A DNA stretch of 64,000 nt, taken from positions 124,001 through 188,000 of the forward strand of contig NZ_JADMNM010000004.1 in assembly GCF_016461955.1 (NCBI RefSeq), in the 5' to 3' direction. Shown piece after piece: positions 54,005-61,304 of the stretch (position 1 is its first letter; the number at the start of each line of letters is the position of its first letter). Under the pieces are notes generated by a model, which made no database searches, was not told where the DNA came from, and was given only the letters and a program-made list of their open reading frames with translations. This stretch comes from Qipengyuania sp. YIM B01966 (GTDB taxonomy: Bacteria > Pseudomonadota > Alphaproteobacteria > Sphingomonadales > Sphingomonadaceae). The position numbers were made by a program, and so were the translations under genes.

Positions 54005-54364
54005 TTAATTCTCGACCAGTTTTGGCCCGGCATCCAGCAGGTCCTCCGGGAGCAGTTTCAGCCGCCTGATCCGCCGGGTAATTTCAGGCCACTCCTCATC
54101 GAGAAAGCGCCGCGCCTCGCTCTGGCGCAACTGCTCGGCGGCTCCGGGCAGGACCACGATGCCAATCCCCCGCTGCACCTCGACCAGGCCATCGGCCTGA
54201 AACTGCTGATAGGCCTTGGCCACGGTCAGTGGATTGGCCCCTTGCTGCGCAGCCAGGCTGCGGACCGAGGGCAGCAGGGCGCCTTCGGCGTAGGTGCCGT
54301 CGATGATCGCGGCGGCAACCATGTCGCGCAGTTTCAGATAAACGGGCCGGGACGAACTGCTCAT
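54005..54364 (-). CDS. GntR-family regulator, YtrA-like
   Basis: A 119-residue protein with an N-terminal winged helix (PVYLKLRDMVAAAIIDGTYAEGALLPSVRSLA, then NPLTVAKAYQQF) and only a short helical tail. This is the YtrA subfamily, which normally controls an adjacent ABC transporter. Here the nearest gene is the divergent POT transporter operon, its likely target. The longer upstream frame is not used. Confidence 0.85.
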   Translation of the reverse strand: MSSSSRPVYLKLRDMVAAAIIDGTYAEGALLPSVRSLAAQQGANPLTVAKAYQQFQADGLVEVQRGIGIVVLPGAAEQLRQSEARRFLDEEWPEITRRIRRLKLLPEDLLDAGPKLVEN

Positions 54365-54369
54365 CTCAG

Positions 54370-54389
54370 GTGTAGCACTGCCATAACAC
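54370..54389. promoter_or_regulatory. Imperfect inverted repeat GTGTAG-N8-TAACAC near the GntR start
   Basis: GTGT and ACAC ends are symmetrical over 20 bases directly upstream of the GntR start codon, the usual place for autoregulation. Symmetry is only partial, so this is a weak candidate operator. Confidence 0.3.
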
Positions 54390-54530
54390 GGCGCGGCGCG
54401 CAACTGGCGGGGGGTGGCGCAAGGCCGGTTTCGGCCGCAACAAATGCTTCACATGGGCAAATCTGCCGCTAGGTTGCGCCGATTGCGGCCGGGTCGAGCC
54501 GCACCGATGCAGGGAAGGTCAAGACAAGCC

Positions 54531-56144
54531 ATGGCAACCGGTTACGCCGAAAGCGGCGACGCGCGGGGCACCATTCTGGGGCACCCCAAGGGACTGTTCG
54601 TCCTGTTTTTCGCGGAAATGTGGGAACGCTTCTCCTATTACGGGATGCGCGCGCTCCTGATCTTTTACCTGACCAAGCACTGGCTCTATTCCGACGAGCA
54701 ATCGGGTATTATCTACGGCGCGTATACGGCGCTGGTCTATATCACCCCGGTGATCGGCGGGTATCTGGCTGATCGTTATCTCGGGCAGCGCAAGGCCGTG
54801 GCCTATGGCGCGGTGCTGTTGACGCTGGGCCATTTCTTCATGGCGTTCGAAGGGGATGCCGGGGCCGGTCATACCAACAACCCGGTGATCAACATCTTCT
54901 GGCTCGCCCTGTCGCTGATCATCGTCGGTTCGGGCTTCCTCAAGGCGAATATCTCGGTGATCGTCGGCCAGCTGTACCCCCGCACCGATGTGCGCCGGGA
55001 TGGTGCTTACACGATCTTCTACATGGGGATTAACCTCGGCGCCGCGATCGGTTCGCTGCTGTGCGGCTATATCGGCGAAACCTATGGCTGGGCCTATGGC
55101 TTCGGCCTCGCGGGGATCGGGATGCTGCTCGGCCTCGCGGTGTTCACCTGGGGCAAGCCGCTGCTGCTAGGCCGCGGCGAGCCGAGCCGGCCGCTCTCCA
55201 AGGGCACCGAATGGGGGCTTTATGTCGCCGGTTTCGGGCTCGTCGCAATCTGCTGGGTGCTGATCCAGAACCAGGCGATGGTCGGCTGGCTGCTCGGCAT
55301 CTTTGGCGGCCTGCTGGTCGCCTATGTGATCTTCACCGCCGTGACCAAGCTGGCACCCGAAGATCGCGACCGGATTTTCGCCGCGTTGTTCCTCATCATC
55401 ACTTCGATCATCTTCTGGGCGCTGTTCGAACAGGCCGGCTCGTCGCTCAACCTGTTCACCGACCGCCATGTTGACCGCGCCGGCGTGCCGGCATCGACAT
55501 TTCAGTCGATCAACGCGATCTACATCATCCTGCTGGCGCCGCTCTTTGCCACGCTGTGGACGGCGCTCGCCCGCAAGGGCATGGAACCTTCGGCGCCGTT
55601 CAAGTTCGGCCTCGGCGTGGTGCAGGTCGGCCTCAGCTTCTTGGTGCTGGTCTGGGGCGCTTATTCGGTCGGCATCGACGTGCCGACCCCGGTGATCTTT
55701 ATCTTCCTCATCTACCTGCTGCAGACGACTGGCGAGTTGTGCCTGTCGCCGGTCGGCCTGTCGGCCATGAACCGGCTGGCGCCGGCGCATATGGCCTCGC
55801 TGATCATGGGTACCTGGTTCTTCGCCTCGGCCACCGGCAATTTCGCCGCGGGTTTGATCGCCTCGGCCACCGGTGCCGAAGGGGTGGGCGAGGAAGCCGG
55901 CAAGCAGGTCGTGCTCGACGTCTACAGCACGGTCGGCTGGGTCGCCGTCGGAGTCGGCATCGTGGTGCTGCTGATCAGCCCGCTGATCAAGCGCTTGATG
56001 CATCTCGACACGCTGCGCGACGATACGGTCGATGATGACCTCGCCGGTCAGCACGAGATCGGCGAACCGCAGGCCGCTGGCGTCCACCCGGCCGCCGATC
56101 ACCCGGCCGGGACGATGTATCCGACCGACGAACCGCGGAGGTAA
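54531..56144 (+). CDS. POT-family proton-coupled peptide transporter
   Basis: A 537-residue inner-membrane symporter for di- and tripeptides. The ExxERFxYY proton/substrate motif is present (AEMWERFSYYGMRALL), with GGYLADRYLGQRKAVAYGAVL after it and FYMGINLGAAIGSLLCG (PTR2 signature) near residue 165. More than twelve helices are visible. The ATG follows AGGGAAGG. It is the first gene of an operon with two amidohydrolases and a prolyl isomerase. Confidence 0.93.
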   Translation: MATGYAESGDARGTILGHPKGLFVLFFAEMWERFSYYGMRALLIFYLTKHWLYSDEQSGIIYGAYTALVYITPVIGGYLADRYLGQRKAVAYGAVLLTLGHFFMAFEGDAGAGHTNNPVINIFWLALSLIIVGSGFLKANISVIVGQLYPRTDVRRDGAYTIFYMGINLGAAIGSLLCGYIGETYGWAYGFGLAGIGMLLGLAVFTWGKPLLLGRGEPSRPLSKGTEWGLYVAGFGLVAICWVLIQNQAMVGWLLGIFGGLLVAYVIFTAVTKLAPEDRDRIFAALFLIITSIIFWALFEQAGSSLNLFTDRHVDRAGVPASTFQSINAIYIILLAPLFATLWTALARKGMEPSAPFKFGLGVVQVGLSFLVLVWGAYSVGIDVPTPVIFIFLIYLLQTTGELCLSPVGLSAMNRLAPAHMASLIMGTWFFASATGNFAAGLIASATGAEGVGEEAGKQVVLDVYSTVGWVAVGVGIVVLLISPLIKRLMHLDTLRDDTVDDDLAGQHEIGEPQAAGVHPAADHPAGTMYPTDEPRR

Positions 56145-56145
56145 T

Positions 56146-57533
<1,388 letters not shown>

Positions 57534-57537
<4 letters not shown>

Positions 57538-58928
57538 GCGCGCGCCTCAGCTCAGCCGCGCAGGCCGCCCTGCTCGGCCTCGCGCTCGCTGTGCCGGCCA
57601 CGCCGGCCGCCGCGCAGAGCTTTGCCGTGACCAATGCCACCATCGTGACCGGCGATGGCAGCGAGCCGGTTGCCGGCGCGACGGTGGTGGTGCGCGGCGG
57701 CCGCGTGGTCGCCGCCGGGCCGGGCGTGGCTGCCCCGGCCGATCTTGAAAGCATCGACGGCACCGGCAAATGGGTCACCCCGGGGCTGGTCGCGGCGGTC
57801 ACCGAGCTCGGCCTGTGGGACGTCAGCGGGGTGCAGGACAGCAACGACGCCAGCGCCCGGTCCAGCCCGTTCAGCGCCGCGCTCGACATTGCCCCGGCGA
57901 TCAACCCCGCCTCGCAGCACATTGCCATCAGCCGCGCCGCGGGGATTACCCGCGCGGTCGTCGCCCCCTCTGCCGCCAGTTCGATCTTTGCCGGCCAGGG
58001 CGCGGTGATCGACCTTGCCGACGATGCCGATCCGATCGTCCGCCGCCGGGCGTTCCAATATGTCGAAATGGGCGAAACCGGCGCGCGCCTTGCTGGCGGC
58101 AGCCGCGTCGCTGCCCATGCGCTGCTCCGCAATGCCCTGCGCGAGGCGCTCGATTACGGGCGCGGCGAGGCGATTGGCGGCGCCGGTATGCGCGGCCGCG
58201 AGCCGGGCCGGGTGACCGATCCGCAGGTAGTCGACAACCGGATGGTGCCGCCCGCCGGCGAACGCGCCAGCGACGTGCTGCTGACCCGTTTCGATGCCGC
58301 CGCGCTGGTTCCGGTCGTGCGCGGCGAACAGCCGCTTTACGTCCACGTCGAACGCGCCGCCGATATCCGCGCCGCGCTCGCCCTCCCGCGCGAATTCCCG
58401 CGGCTGAAGCTGGTGCTGGTCGGGGCGAGCGAGGGCTGGCTCGCCGCGCAGGAGATCGCCGCCGCCGGCGTGCCGGTGATCGCCAACGGGCTGACCGACC
58501 TGCCCTCCTCCTTCGAGCAGATCGGTTCGACCCAGAGCAATATCGGCCGGCTGGTCGCCGCCGGGGTCAAGGTGGCAATCAATGCCGCGGCGATGGAACA
58601 GCCGCGCTACCTGCCGCAATTTGCCGGCAACCTCGTCGCCCTGACGCGGATGCCGCGCGCCAGCGGGCTAAGTTGGGGGCAGGCCTTCGCTGCGATCAGT
58701 TCGGTCCCGGCCGAGATTGCCGGACTTGCCAGTGGCACGGGCACGCTGCGCGCCGGCGCGCCGGGCGACGTGGTGATCTGGAGCGGCGACCCGCTGGAAG
58801 CCGGCTCGACGCCCGAAATGGTGTTCATCGACGGGGTCGACCAGCCGCTCGACAACCACCAGACGCGCCTTCGCGAACGCTATCGCACGCTCGACGAAAG
58901 CCGGCTGCCCAAGGCCTATGACTGGTAG
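57534..58928 (+). CDS. Amidohydrolase paralogue lacking the HxH metal motif
   Basis: A 464-residue exported protein (signal peptide ending AAAQS). The amidohydrolase fold is clear: VTNATIVTGDGSEPV, IDGTGKWVTPGLV, and an end with AGAPGDVVIWSGDPLE. Where active members read DAHTHLG this one reads AAVTELG (V89, E91), so the first metal site is gone. The later His in VHVERAADI and the final Asp region are also altered. It overlaps the active paralogue by four bases, suggesting a structural or regulatory partner. Confidence 0.85.
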
Positions 58929-59415
58929 GGCCGTTTTCGCGCTCGCCGCGCTGGCCGCAGTGCTGGCTGGGCCGGTTGCAGCGGCCGCACAAGAGGCGCC
59001 GCAGGTGGTGCATGATACCGCCTGGCACAATGCGCAACGCGCGGCCCTGGCGCGGCTCGATCCGGCAGCGGGATGGCGCGTGCTGCCTGACGGCGTCGCC
59101 TTGCGGCGGATTGCCGGGGATGGCAGCGGCGCCCGGCCCACATTGGCTGACCGGGTGACCGTCCATTACCGAGGCAGCTTCATCGACGGCACGGTGTTCG
59201 ACAGTTCGCTCGACCGCGGTGAGCCGGCGACCTTCCCGCTCGCCCGGCTGATCCGGGGCTGGCAAGTGGCGATCCCCGAGATGGGGGTGGGCGATCGGTA
59301 CGAGATCGTCATCCCGGCCGACCTCGCCTATGGTCCACTGGGCAAGGGACCGATCCCGGGCAATGCGACCTTGCTGTTCACCATCGAGTTGCTGGGGATC
59401 AACCCGCCCGGATAG
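58918..59415 (+). CDS. Exported FKBP-type peptidyl-prolyl isomerase
   Basis: A 165-residue periplasmic isomerase. The signal peptide ends AAAAQ. The FKBP domain (about 70-163) has VTVHYRGSFIDGTVFDSS, a RGWQVAIPEMGVGDRYEIVIP core and AYGPLGKG before the last strand LLFTIELLGI. The start lies 11 bases inside the preceding amidohydrolase gene, so the two are tightly coupled. Prolyl isomerisation alongside peptide uptake and hydrolysis is suggestive of proline-containing substrates. Confidence 0.9.
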   Translation: MTGRAVFALAALAAVLAGPVAAAAQEAPQVVHDTAWHNAQRAALARLDPAAGWRVLPDGVALRRIAGDGSGARPTLADRVTVHYRGSFIDGTVFDSSLDRGEPATFPLARLIRGWQVAIPEMGVGDRYEIVIPADLAYGPLGKGPIPGNATLLFTIELLGINPPG

Positions 59416-59427
59416 GAGTGACCTGCC

Positions 59428-60105
59428 ATGAGTGATCCGCTGCTGTCACTGCTGGCCGCCAGCATCGCTTTTGTCGGCTCCCATTTCGCGCTGTCACACC
59501 CTTTGCGAGCACCGCTGGTTTCGGCCCTGGGGGAAAACGGCTTCCGCATCCTCTATTCACTGGTGGCATTGGCGACGATTGCATGGATGGCGTTCGCCTT
59601 CCGTGCTGCGCCGACCGCCGATCTGCCGGGCAGCGGCGAGCTGGGCTGGATCATCGCCACCATTATCACCCTGCCCGCGCTGGCGCTGCTGCTCGGCTCG
59701 TTTCGGGGCAACCCCGCGCTGCCTGCGCCGGGCGCCGCGCAGCTTGCCGCACGCGAGCCGGCGGGCGTGTTCCGCGTCACCCGCCATCCGATGATGTGGG
59801 GGTTCGCGCTGTGGGCGATCAGCCATATCGTCCTGTGGTGGAGCGTCAGGACACTGATCGTCGCCGGCGCCATCCTGCTGCTCGCACTGGTCGGCGCGCA
59901 TTTGCAGGACCGCAAGAAGGAGACGCTGATGGGCGCGGCGTGGGCAGGGTGGGAAGCAAAGACCAGCTACTGGCCGCGATGGGGCGCGCTGCTCAAGCTC
60001 AATCCGCTCCTCTGGCTCGGCGCGCTGGCGGCATGGTGGATCATCACCTGGTCCCACATCCACGCCGCCGGGGTGCCCGCCGGCATCTGGCGCTGGCTCG
60101 GCTAG
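59428..60105 (+). CDS. nnrU: NnrU family membrane protein
   Basis: A 225-residue protein with about six membrane helices. FVGSHFALSHPLRAPLV near the start and RHPMMWGFALWAISHIVLWW are the NnrU signatures. NnrU was named from denitrification clusters, but the family also occurs without them and resembles isoprenylcysteine methyltransferase-like membrane proteins. It is 12 bases after the FKBP gene. The stop interlocks with the S41 gene. Confidence 0.88.
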   Translation: MSDPLLSLLAASIAFVGSHFALSHPLRAPLVSALGENGFRILYSLVALATIAWMAFAFRAAPTADLPGSGELGWIIATIITLPALALLLGSFRGNPALPAPGAAQLAAREPAGVFRVTRHPMMWGFALWAISHIVLWWSVRTLIVAGAILLLALVGAHLQDRKKETLMGAAWAGWEAKTSYWPRWGALLKLNPLLWLGALAAWWIITWSHIHAAGVPAGIWRWLG

Positions 60106-61304
60106 CGCCGGGGTTGGGCGCAAGGGGGCGAGGCAAAGGTTTCGCGCGGCGTTCCGTCCACCTGCATCAGCCGTTCCACCGGCAGCTTAATGGTGAGATC
60201 GGCGGTTCCGAGCGGCAGATCCTCGACCGCACCCAGCAGGCCCGCCATCTTTGTCCCGCAAACAGTCGCGCCGAGCTCGCCCAGCCCTAGCGCCAGCCCT
60301 TCGCCCATGCTGCCTGTCCAGCGGCCGACGCGCACGGTCAATTGCCCGCTATGGCGGCGCACGCCGGGTCGGGGCAGCACGAGTTCCAGCCATTCGCGGG
60401 CAATCCCCGTGTCCCGCACCGCACTTGGCAGCGCGTGCCGCTGATAGGGGGTCGGCGCAGCTGCGAACCACCCCATGATCCCACGCGCGACATGCGTGTT
60501 CCCGCCGCCGGGCGTGTTGGTAAGATCGATTTCAATCGGGGCCGCCGGGTCCACGCTCAGCATCGGCTGATCGAACGCTGCGATGGTCGCGTCGTCGCCT
60601 AGCGCATTGTTGATGGTAATCACCGGGGTGATGGCCGCGTTCTGCAACGTGACCGGCGGCATGGTCCCAACGCGCTGGTCATACAGGCTCACGAGCCTGC
60701 GCCGCACGGCTTTGTCCCCGGGGTTGCGGAAGGTCAGATCGCGCACCCGGTCACGCCGGCCGGCGGCGAGTACGCGGGCGGCAAAGCCGTCGCGCTCACC
60801 GCTGCCGGTGGTTCCCAAGCCACCCCAGAAGGCGGCGACCGCATCGGCCATGGGCACCCCGCCGACAGCCACCAGCTCCGGCCCTTCGCGCACACTGGCC
60901 ATCGCGGCAGGCGATCCGGGGCGGACAGCGGTGATCCGATAGGCCCCGCCACGCGGTTCAACCCACAGATCGGCATAGCTTGGCACCAGCGCGTAACTGT
61001 CGGCGAAGCTGGAGCCGGTAATCGCATGATGATCAGCCAATAGCATCAGCGCGCGTTCGGTGAAGGCGAGCAGACTGCGCCCATCGCGCACCGCATCGCG
61101 TTCGGCCGCCAGCGTGGCGCTCAACACAAACCGGCCGCCGGGCAGGCGTTCCGGGTAGGCATAACGGTGGTTGATCAGCGGCTCGAGCGCCTGCGCTGCT
61201 GCGCGGTAATCGACAGCGGCCTCTCCTTGCGCCGCCGCATGCGCCAGCGCGGCCGCCGGCAGCGCACCGCACGCCAGCGCCAGGGCGGCCAGACGCACGA
61301 TCAC
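60102..61304 (-). CDS. S41-family peptidase-like exported protein
   Basis: A 400-residue protein with a signal peptide (ends ALAHA). A helical N-terminal domain and a PDZ-like segment (about 100-145, YRITAVRPGSPAAMASVREG) precede a tail-specific-protease core. GRWTGSMGEGLALGL places a candidate nucleophile Ser near residue 325. The family cleaves unfolded or tagged periplasmic proteins. It starts at GTG overlapping the upstream gene as GTGA. Confidence 0.8.
   Translation of the reverse strand: MIVRLAALALACGALPAAALAHAAAQGEAAVDYRAAAQALEPLINHRYAYPERLPGGRFVLSATLAAERDAVRDGRSLLAFTERALMLLADHHAITGSSFADSYALVPSYADLWVEPRGGAYRITAVRPGSPAAMASVREGPELVAVGGVPMADAVAAFWGGLGTTGSGERDGFAARVLAAGRRDRVRDLTFRNPGDKAVRRRLVSLYDQRVGTMPPVTLQNAAITPVITINNALGDDATIAAFDQPMLSVDPAAPIEIDLTNTPGGGNTHVARGIMGWFAAAPTPYQRHALPSAVRDTGIAREWLELVLPRPGVRRHSGQLTVRVGRWTGSMGEGLALGLGELGATVCGTKMAGLLGAVEDLPLGTADLTIKLPVERLMQVDGTPRETFASPPCAQPRR

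Follow-up and report, generated by a model that had tools for sequence, protein, structure and literature searches.

Dihydroorotase belongs to the amidohydrolase superfamily, and pDHO of Pseudomonas aeruginosa is a dihydroorotase-type sequence that lies beside the ATCase gene. Dead-and-live paralogue pairs are known among peptidases, decarboxylases and tRNA deaminases. First, in the M16B pairs (MPP alpha/beta, Thermus TTHA1264/TTHA1265 and Sphingomonas SPH2681/SPH2682) the subunits are homologous and the metal motif is found in one of them; in Thermus the two genes are neighbouring, and the homodimeric relative BHP has two motifs (PMC12731061). Second, pDHO is described as an inactive dihydroorotase homologue that is needed for ATCase activity and is part of a stoichiometric complex (PMC7053772). 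Third, Trypanosoma AdoMetDC is an active enzyme in a functional complex with a catalytically dead paralogue, the prozyme (PMC6221367 and PMC5201418). In our searches of the open-access literature, we found no description of a live/dead pair made of two amidohydrolases from one branch.

Here, we analysed a stretch of 64,000 nucleotides (the window) from Qipengyuania sp. YIM B01966, in a genome of 2.44 Mb and 43 contigs whose best matches among named genomes are Qipengyuania, Novosphingobium, Sphingomonas and other Sphingomonadales. Two genes of the window encode an amidohydrolase-fold protein deprived of its metal ligands (DEG) and its intact upstream paralogue (CAT); their coordinates are collected in Table 1. 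For CAT we use the 501-aa numbering of the mechanical ORF (56032-57537), its likely start having been picked by eye. The closest solved relative of both by sequence is 3ooq from Thermotoga maritima (locus presumably TM0814), titled “amidohydrolase”, which scored 94 bits with DEG and 199 bits with CAT. Like CAT, 3ooq reads HSH at the metal site but, unlike the pair, it is one intact enzyme of 396 residues. A large plasmid of Qipengyuania citrea also carries this entire cluster with its neighbours, in the order GntR regulator, peptide MFS transporter, amidohydrolase, amidohydrolase family protein, FKBP isomerase and NnrU protein, and the pair is carried as well by the large plasmid pSA1 of Novosphingobium resinovorum. 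Elsewhere in the window, a 400-aa frame on the reverse strand (60102-61304) matched nothing in NCBIfam and, in Pfam, only PDZ at a score below the threshold.

Table 1. Coordinates of the CAT-DEG locus and its neighbours in the window.
Feature	Coordinates	Strand	Basis
GntR-type regulator, conserved beside the pair in near relatives	54005..54403	-	Annotated relative and synteny
POT-family peptide/H+ symporter, upstream of CAT	54414..56144	+	Profile scan, neighbourhood comparison
CAT, intact paralogue, metal site complete (six of six residues); probable lipoprotein from an IAGC lipobox pattern	56146..57537	+	
ATGA, overlap of CAT stop and DEG start, 4 bases	57534..57537	+	Sequence; relatives
DEG, ligand-less amidohydrolase-fold protein, 464 aa	57534..58928	+	Frame, alignments, AlphaFold2 model, structure comparison
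V89-T90-E91, at the HxH place of active relatives	57798..57806	+	Sequence and alignments
H271, sole kept residue among the six metal-site positions; His in 27 of 88 DEG rows	58344..58346	+	Joint alignment
G297, at the place of the fourth metal His (H338 in CAT); 80 of 88 DEG rows have Gly, none has His	58422..58424	+	Joint alignment
DEG tail motif QTRLRERY, residues 443-450	58860..58883	+	Tail pattern over aligned rows
FKBP-type prolyl isomerase, 11-base overlap with the DEG end	58918..59415	+	Profile scan, neighbourhood

The initial annotation had proposed that both His of the HxH motif are replaced in DEG, by V89 and E91, while length and fold motifs are kept. Both proposals could be confirmed. 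Residues 81-93 of DEG read VTPGLVAAVTELG, where the upstream paralogue carries HSH within the segment VTPGVIDIHSHLG. Moreover, the loss was wider than claimed. By mapping onto DEG the six CAT residues that we take to be metal ligands from the superfamily pattern (H155, H157, K246, H312, H338 and D392), we found in the alignment V, E, E, H, G and a gap, that is five of six positions gone and the third His kept. A catalytically competent metal site, consisting of HxH, Lys, two further His and Asp as mapped from CAT, is absent in the DEG of the window. The gene itself is uninterrupted, with 464 codons and no internal stop, and its product, like CAT, matched the Pfam amidohydrolase profiles above cut-off (for DEG, PF07969 with 33.0 bits for a cut-off of 29.7 and PF01979 with 30.3 bits for a cut-off of 25, the best stretches lying in the C-terminal part at 318-434). 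The two paralogues share 27% identity across 418 columns.

An AlphaFold2 model of DEG alone reached a pLDDT of 86.3 and a pTM of 0.84. When compared to solved structures, this model found 3ooq as top match (Z 44.5 over 365 residues, rmsd 3.5), the remaining 49 entries shown having Z scores of 22-24. Judged by this predicted structure, DEG is a full-length amidohydrolase-fold protein that kept the barrel and lost the metal site. The model of CAT alone was weaker (pLDDT 73.2, pTM 0.76, Z 34.8 to 3ooq), with a pLDDT below 50 in the stretch that follows HxH (about 130-177). This may come from a narrow alignment of 56 sequences and not from the absence of a partner.

Whether the loss of HxH is kept among orthologues had been set as a test beforehand. 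We used a first aligned set of 50 rows, made of 50 fetched loci minus one in which both genes are broken (L082), plus the window; L083, whose DEG is cut by a contig end, was kept. HxH was present in none of the 50 DEG rows and in all 50 CAT rows. In a second set, taken from the best 80 of at least 588 loci in a contig scan and therefore made of close relatives, both frames could be measured in 77 loci (in L119, L148 and L159 our script did not find both full frames), with HxH in 0/77 DEG and 77/77 CAT; the two sets overlap partly and their counts are not to be summed. Then, we looked at 38 wider loci, whose genomes are more distant and belong either to the same class or to other classes within the phylum. 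A single DEG row (L214) has the HxH letters (GAHTH), and it lacks the Lys, the third and fourth His and the Asp. Since its neighbour in the tree is devoid of HxH, these letters are perhaps a chance return.

By considering all six ligands in a joint alignment of 88 DEG rows (the L083 row being truncated), we counted none kept in 52 rows, one in 33 and two in 3, thus never more than two of six, and the fourth His survived nowhere (Table 1). All six are kept in 80/80 CAT rows and in 8/8 C-terminal domains of fused proteins described below. A shift in the alignment that would hide HxH was rejected, as the PG and G flanks line up and the motif was also searched for as a pattern. We likewise rejected a sequencing error or a pseudogene as the cause, given that the loss is common to orthologues (49 besides the window, and 77/77 of the partly overlapping second set) and that dN/dS is low. 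As read from these alignments, ligand loss in DEG is old and shared. In genome G459, a second and divergent CAT-DEG-like pair (L206) lies beside the normal pair (L205), and its dead member keeps the first His only.

We then asked how faithfully the two genes travel together. DEG and CAT are both found in the same 51 of 59 relatives (the genome of the window included) and neither in the same 8, and DEG accompanies CAT in each of the 50 fetched loci of relatives. Across the phylum, the DEG profile matched 62 of 398 genomes and the CAT profile the same 62, lists that were compared by eye. Because the DEG profile also picks up CAT (at best with an E of about 6e-59), match places were checked: in the 8 genomes with the weakest DEG match the places of DEG and CAT differ by their coordinates, and the remaining 54 have a DEG E-value of at most 4e-106. 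In a sample of the class, 14/289 genomes matched DEG, all with a second CAT-like place. Within our E-value limits, none of the sampled genomes (59 relatives and 398 across the phylum) has DEG or CAT alone. The two lie on different contigs in G260, in which the DEG match begins at base 7, as at a contig break.

Adjacency was as constant. Both genes are present in 80/80 loci (best 80 of at least 588), and the orders printed, for 76 of them, are all CAT-DEG. In the wider loci the genes adjoin on the same strand in 38/38; best-hit labels gave DEG in 37/38 with two reversed orders, and the profile scan gave both genes in order in 38/38. The overlap with the intact paralogue pointed out in the initial annotation is indeed there, and a start codon in frame and exactly 4 bases ahead of the CAT end is available in 77/77 loci (from the best 80 of at least 588), in 48/49 relatives, L051 being the exception, and in 18/38 wider loci. 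For the two former counts the start was sought near the CAT end, so that they mean that a start exists and do not imply its use. The other 20 wider loci have a possible DEG start between -1 and +15, and in relatives the overlap often reads ATGA or GTGA. Such co-inheritance is partly expected without contact between the proteins, the genes overlapping.

Taking these observations together, we propose that DEG is very probably a pseudoenzyme subunit of a putative obligate heteromer with CAT in the periplasm. Of the earlier suggestion of a catalytically dead partner kept by selection, death and upkeep are borne out by ligand loss, dN/dS and co-occurrence with adjacency; that DEG is a partner subunit we strongly infer.

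Alternatively, DEG could be a separate periplasmic binding or chaperone-like protein of the same pathway, for example one that captures substrate for the POT transporter, with no lasting CAT complex. The barrel cavity, free of metal, could bind a ligand, and the pair has a POT gene nearby in 63/80 loci (best 80 of at least 588) and in 40/50 loci of relatives, counts that contig ends and stretch lengths lower. However, POT is found in 1/38 wider loci; in the 37 others the fetched stretch has no POT match and CAT and DEG are still together. We therefore dropped POT as the defining partner; the constant unit is CAT plus DEG. Clustering of neighbours in these 38 loci revealed no context common to more than 5 of them. 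Given also that the presence or absence of DEG is the same as that of CAT, we regard a free-standing binding protein as unlikely.

Another alternative is that DEG is itself an enzyme, its old barrel hosting a new chemistry that needs no metal. R134, D254, R274, D277, E300 and N336 are invariant or nearly so in DEG, which evolves under constraint. However, the former metal positions vary: across the 88 DEG rows, 15 residue types occur where the first His stood and 14 where the second did, which makes it unlikely that this pocket houses a new active site under conservation; we give this explanation very little chance.

Maintenance of DEG by selection was supported by pairwise dN/dS values, computed by the Nei-Gojobori method with our own script on the 25 closest pairs; more distant pairs have a high dS and are rough. 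Values ranged from 0.04 to 0.49 for DEG and from 0.02 to 0.35 for CAT, and those of DEG were higher in 23/25 pairs, indicating that DEG is constrained, more loosely than CAT. We also looked for decay by frameshift. The DEG frames are full-length in the 38 wider loci; among the 50 loci of relatives, the DEG of L083 is cut by a contig end and both genes of L082 are broken into several frames, in a genome (G007; 86% complete, 7% contamination) for which joint decay and assembly errors are both conceivable. One or two internal stops were flagged in the DEG matches of G328, G425, G612, G623, G658, G674 and G704 and in the CAT matches of G351, G540, G636, G638, G647 and G653; in the loci that were fetched, which do not include those of G623 and G704, the profile match lies within one long frame. 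That DEG would be a decaying, functionless duplicate, as its lost catalytic residues, its higher dN/dS and the broken genes of G007 might suggest, is hardly credible with a dN/dS that never exceeds 0.49, full-length frames in wider loci and, in the samples searched, no CAT without DEG.

Coming back to the putative heteromer with CAT, we looked at the ends of both proteins. A DEG tail pattern, [QRS]xxLxx[RKQ]Y, chosen after the tails had been seen, is present in 152/165 DEG rows and 0/157 CAT rows, the rows of relatives, wider loci and contig-scan sets being pooled by one script. CAT ends with SDFxLG in 133/157 rows, a tail found in 0/8 fused C-terminal domains as cut out. Also, the last 15 residues of CAT are near-invariant in the alignment, yet their pLDDT is 24-32 in the model of CAT alone. 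By eye, neither motif is seen in the printed ends of four single-gene relatives, and that of Nonomuraea has a C-terminal extension of another sequence. The DEG and CAT alignments stop 10-12 residues before the end of 3ooq, which thus has no room for such long tails. The pair-specific tails are, from their sequences, candidate sites of CAT-DEG contact.

At the other end, a lipobox-like pattern (loose, with starts set by script) is found near the N-terminus of CAT in 68/78 cases and of DEG in 4/78. An AxA signal pattern does not discriminate (69/78 for DEG, 71/78 for CAT), and by eye the N-terminus of DEG is Sec-like. Together, the lipobox counts and the Sec-like start point to CAT as a probable lipoprotein and to DEG as a protein that is probably soluble in the periplasm.

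To place the pair among its relatives, we used plasmid records, the only source of our Bacillota, Actinomycetota and Bacteroidota rows. Those of Nonomuraea, Monoglobus, Acetoanaerobium and Cytobacillus (Bacillota and Actinomycetota) have a related gene with HxH, and no second amidohydrolase lies beside it in the two annotated stretches (Monoglobus and Cytobacillus). In the records of Nonomuraea, Monoglobus and Acetoanaerobium, the DEG and CAT profiles each match one frame only, with close scores (275/288, 227/247 and 232/266 bits, respectively). In other phyla, the relatives of CAT presumably function in the absence of DEG. A tree built by a quick method from 100 chosen rows, with 34/97 inner branches weak and the root not fixed, puts the four single-gene relatives on the CAT side (SH-aLRT 94). 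In this tree, the CAT and DEG rows are largely apart, but two changes are required for each label, and one clean origin of DEG does not follow from it; the DEG member of L206 and the DEG rows of fused-type loci are not placed firmly relative to the main DEG group. By eye, the DEG sub-groups resemble the CAT sub-groups. The simplest reading of these sequences would be that a single-gene enzyme was duplicated and that one of the copies then lost its metal site.

Accordingly worded as a scenario, an ancestral single-gene metal-dependent amidohydrolase of the kind of 3ooq and the Bacillota and Actinomycetota relatives would have given rise to two neighbouring genes, CAT keeping the metal site and DEG losing it but not the barrel. 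Both would be made together, probably by coupled translation, and exported to the periplasm, where CAT would probably be lipid-anchored and DEG soluble. There they would form an obligate heteromer in which DEG replaces one subunit of an ancestral homo-oligomer and completes or stabilises the active site, holds the substrate, or both, the chemistry being done by CAT. In sphingomonads the substrate would probably be a small peptide or an N-acyl amino acid, on which the pair would act in concert with the cluster's POT transporter. This is a thin hint, based on that transporter and on the weak kinship of CAT, far below family cut-offs, with prolidase-like and carboxypeptidase-like amidohydrolases; it is thin because ochratoxin-degrading amidohydrolases score about as well with CAT.

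Another architecture is found in eight loci of the phylum (L185-L192), all belonging to classes other than that of the window. Their CAT is the C-terminal domain of a frame of 1006-1110 residues whose N-terminal amidohydrolase domain has lost HxH, the Lys and the third and fourth His, with an Asp at the sixth position in 1/8; a separate DEG gene follows the fusion, which makes two dead barrels for one live. As DEG still lies beside it, the fused dead barrel differs from DEG, and the fusion is no proof of CAT-DEG contact. Pieces of this arrangement also occur on a plasmid of Hymenobacter volaticus (Bacteroidota), where the CAT-like part is split between two annotated genes that adjoin a DEG-like one. 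It is conceivable, although we lean against it, that in Pseudomonadota and at least one Bacteroidota record periplasmic amidohydrolase assemblies of live and dead barrels work only when mixed, mostly 1:1 and with two dead for one live in the eight fused loci, the dead barrels forming a substrate chamber or a regulatory site and being locked by the pair-specific C-terminal tails.

The family lends itself to study as a natural series, since it includes single-gene enzymes, live/dead pairs and dead-live fusions accompanied by one more dead partner. It also calls for caution in annotation: in the Q. citrea record, our one annotated example, the name given to DEG is “amidohydrolase family protein”, and readers may thus presume activity in a protein without its metal site.

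How does the pair compare with the systems introduced above? DEG is not a pDHO by its sequence, dihydroorotase models scoring far below their cut-offs (for example 22.1 versus 645 bits), nor by its context, its neighbours being POT, CAT and FKBP and not ATCase. pDHO serves the unrelated enzyme ATCase, whereas DEG adjoins its active paralogue, the N-termini of the two resembling export signals. AdoMetDC-prozyme differs in being eukaryotic and another enzyme, and the AdoMetDC fold differs from the amidohydrolase fold. The M16B pairs are similar in having one live and one dead homologue, encoded in Thermus by neighbouring genes, but their fold and chemistry are unrelated and their complexes have been solved, whereas we infer that of CAT and DEG. 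All in all, CAT-DEG would work like MPP alpha/beta, the M16B pairs and pDHO, while being a member of none of them.
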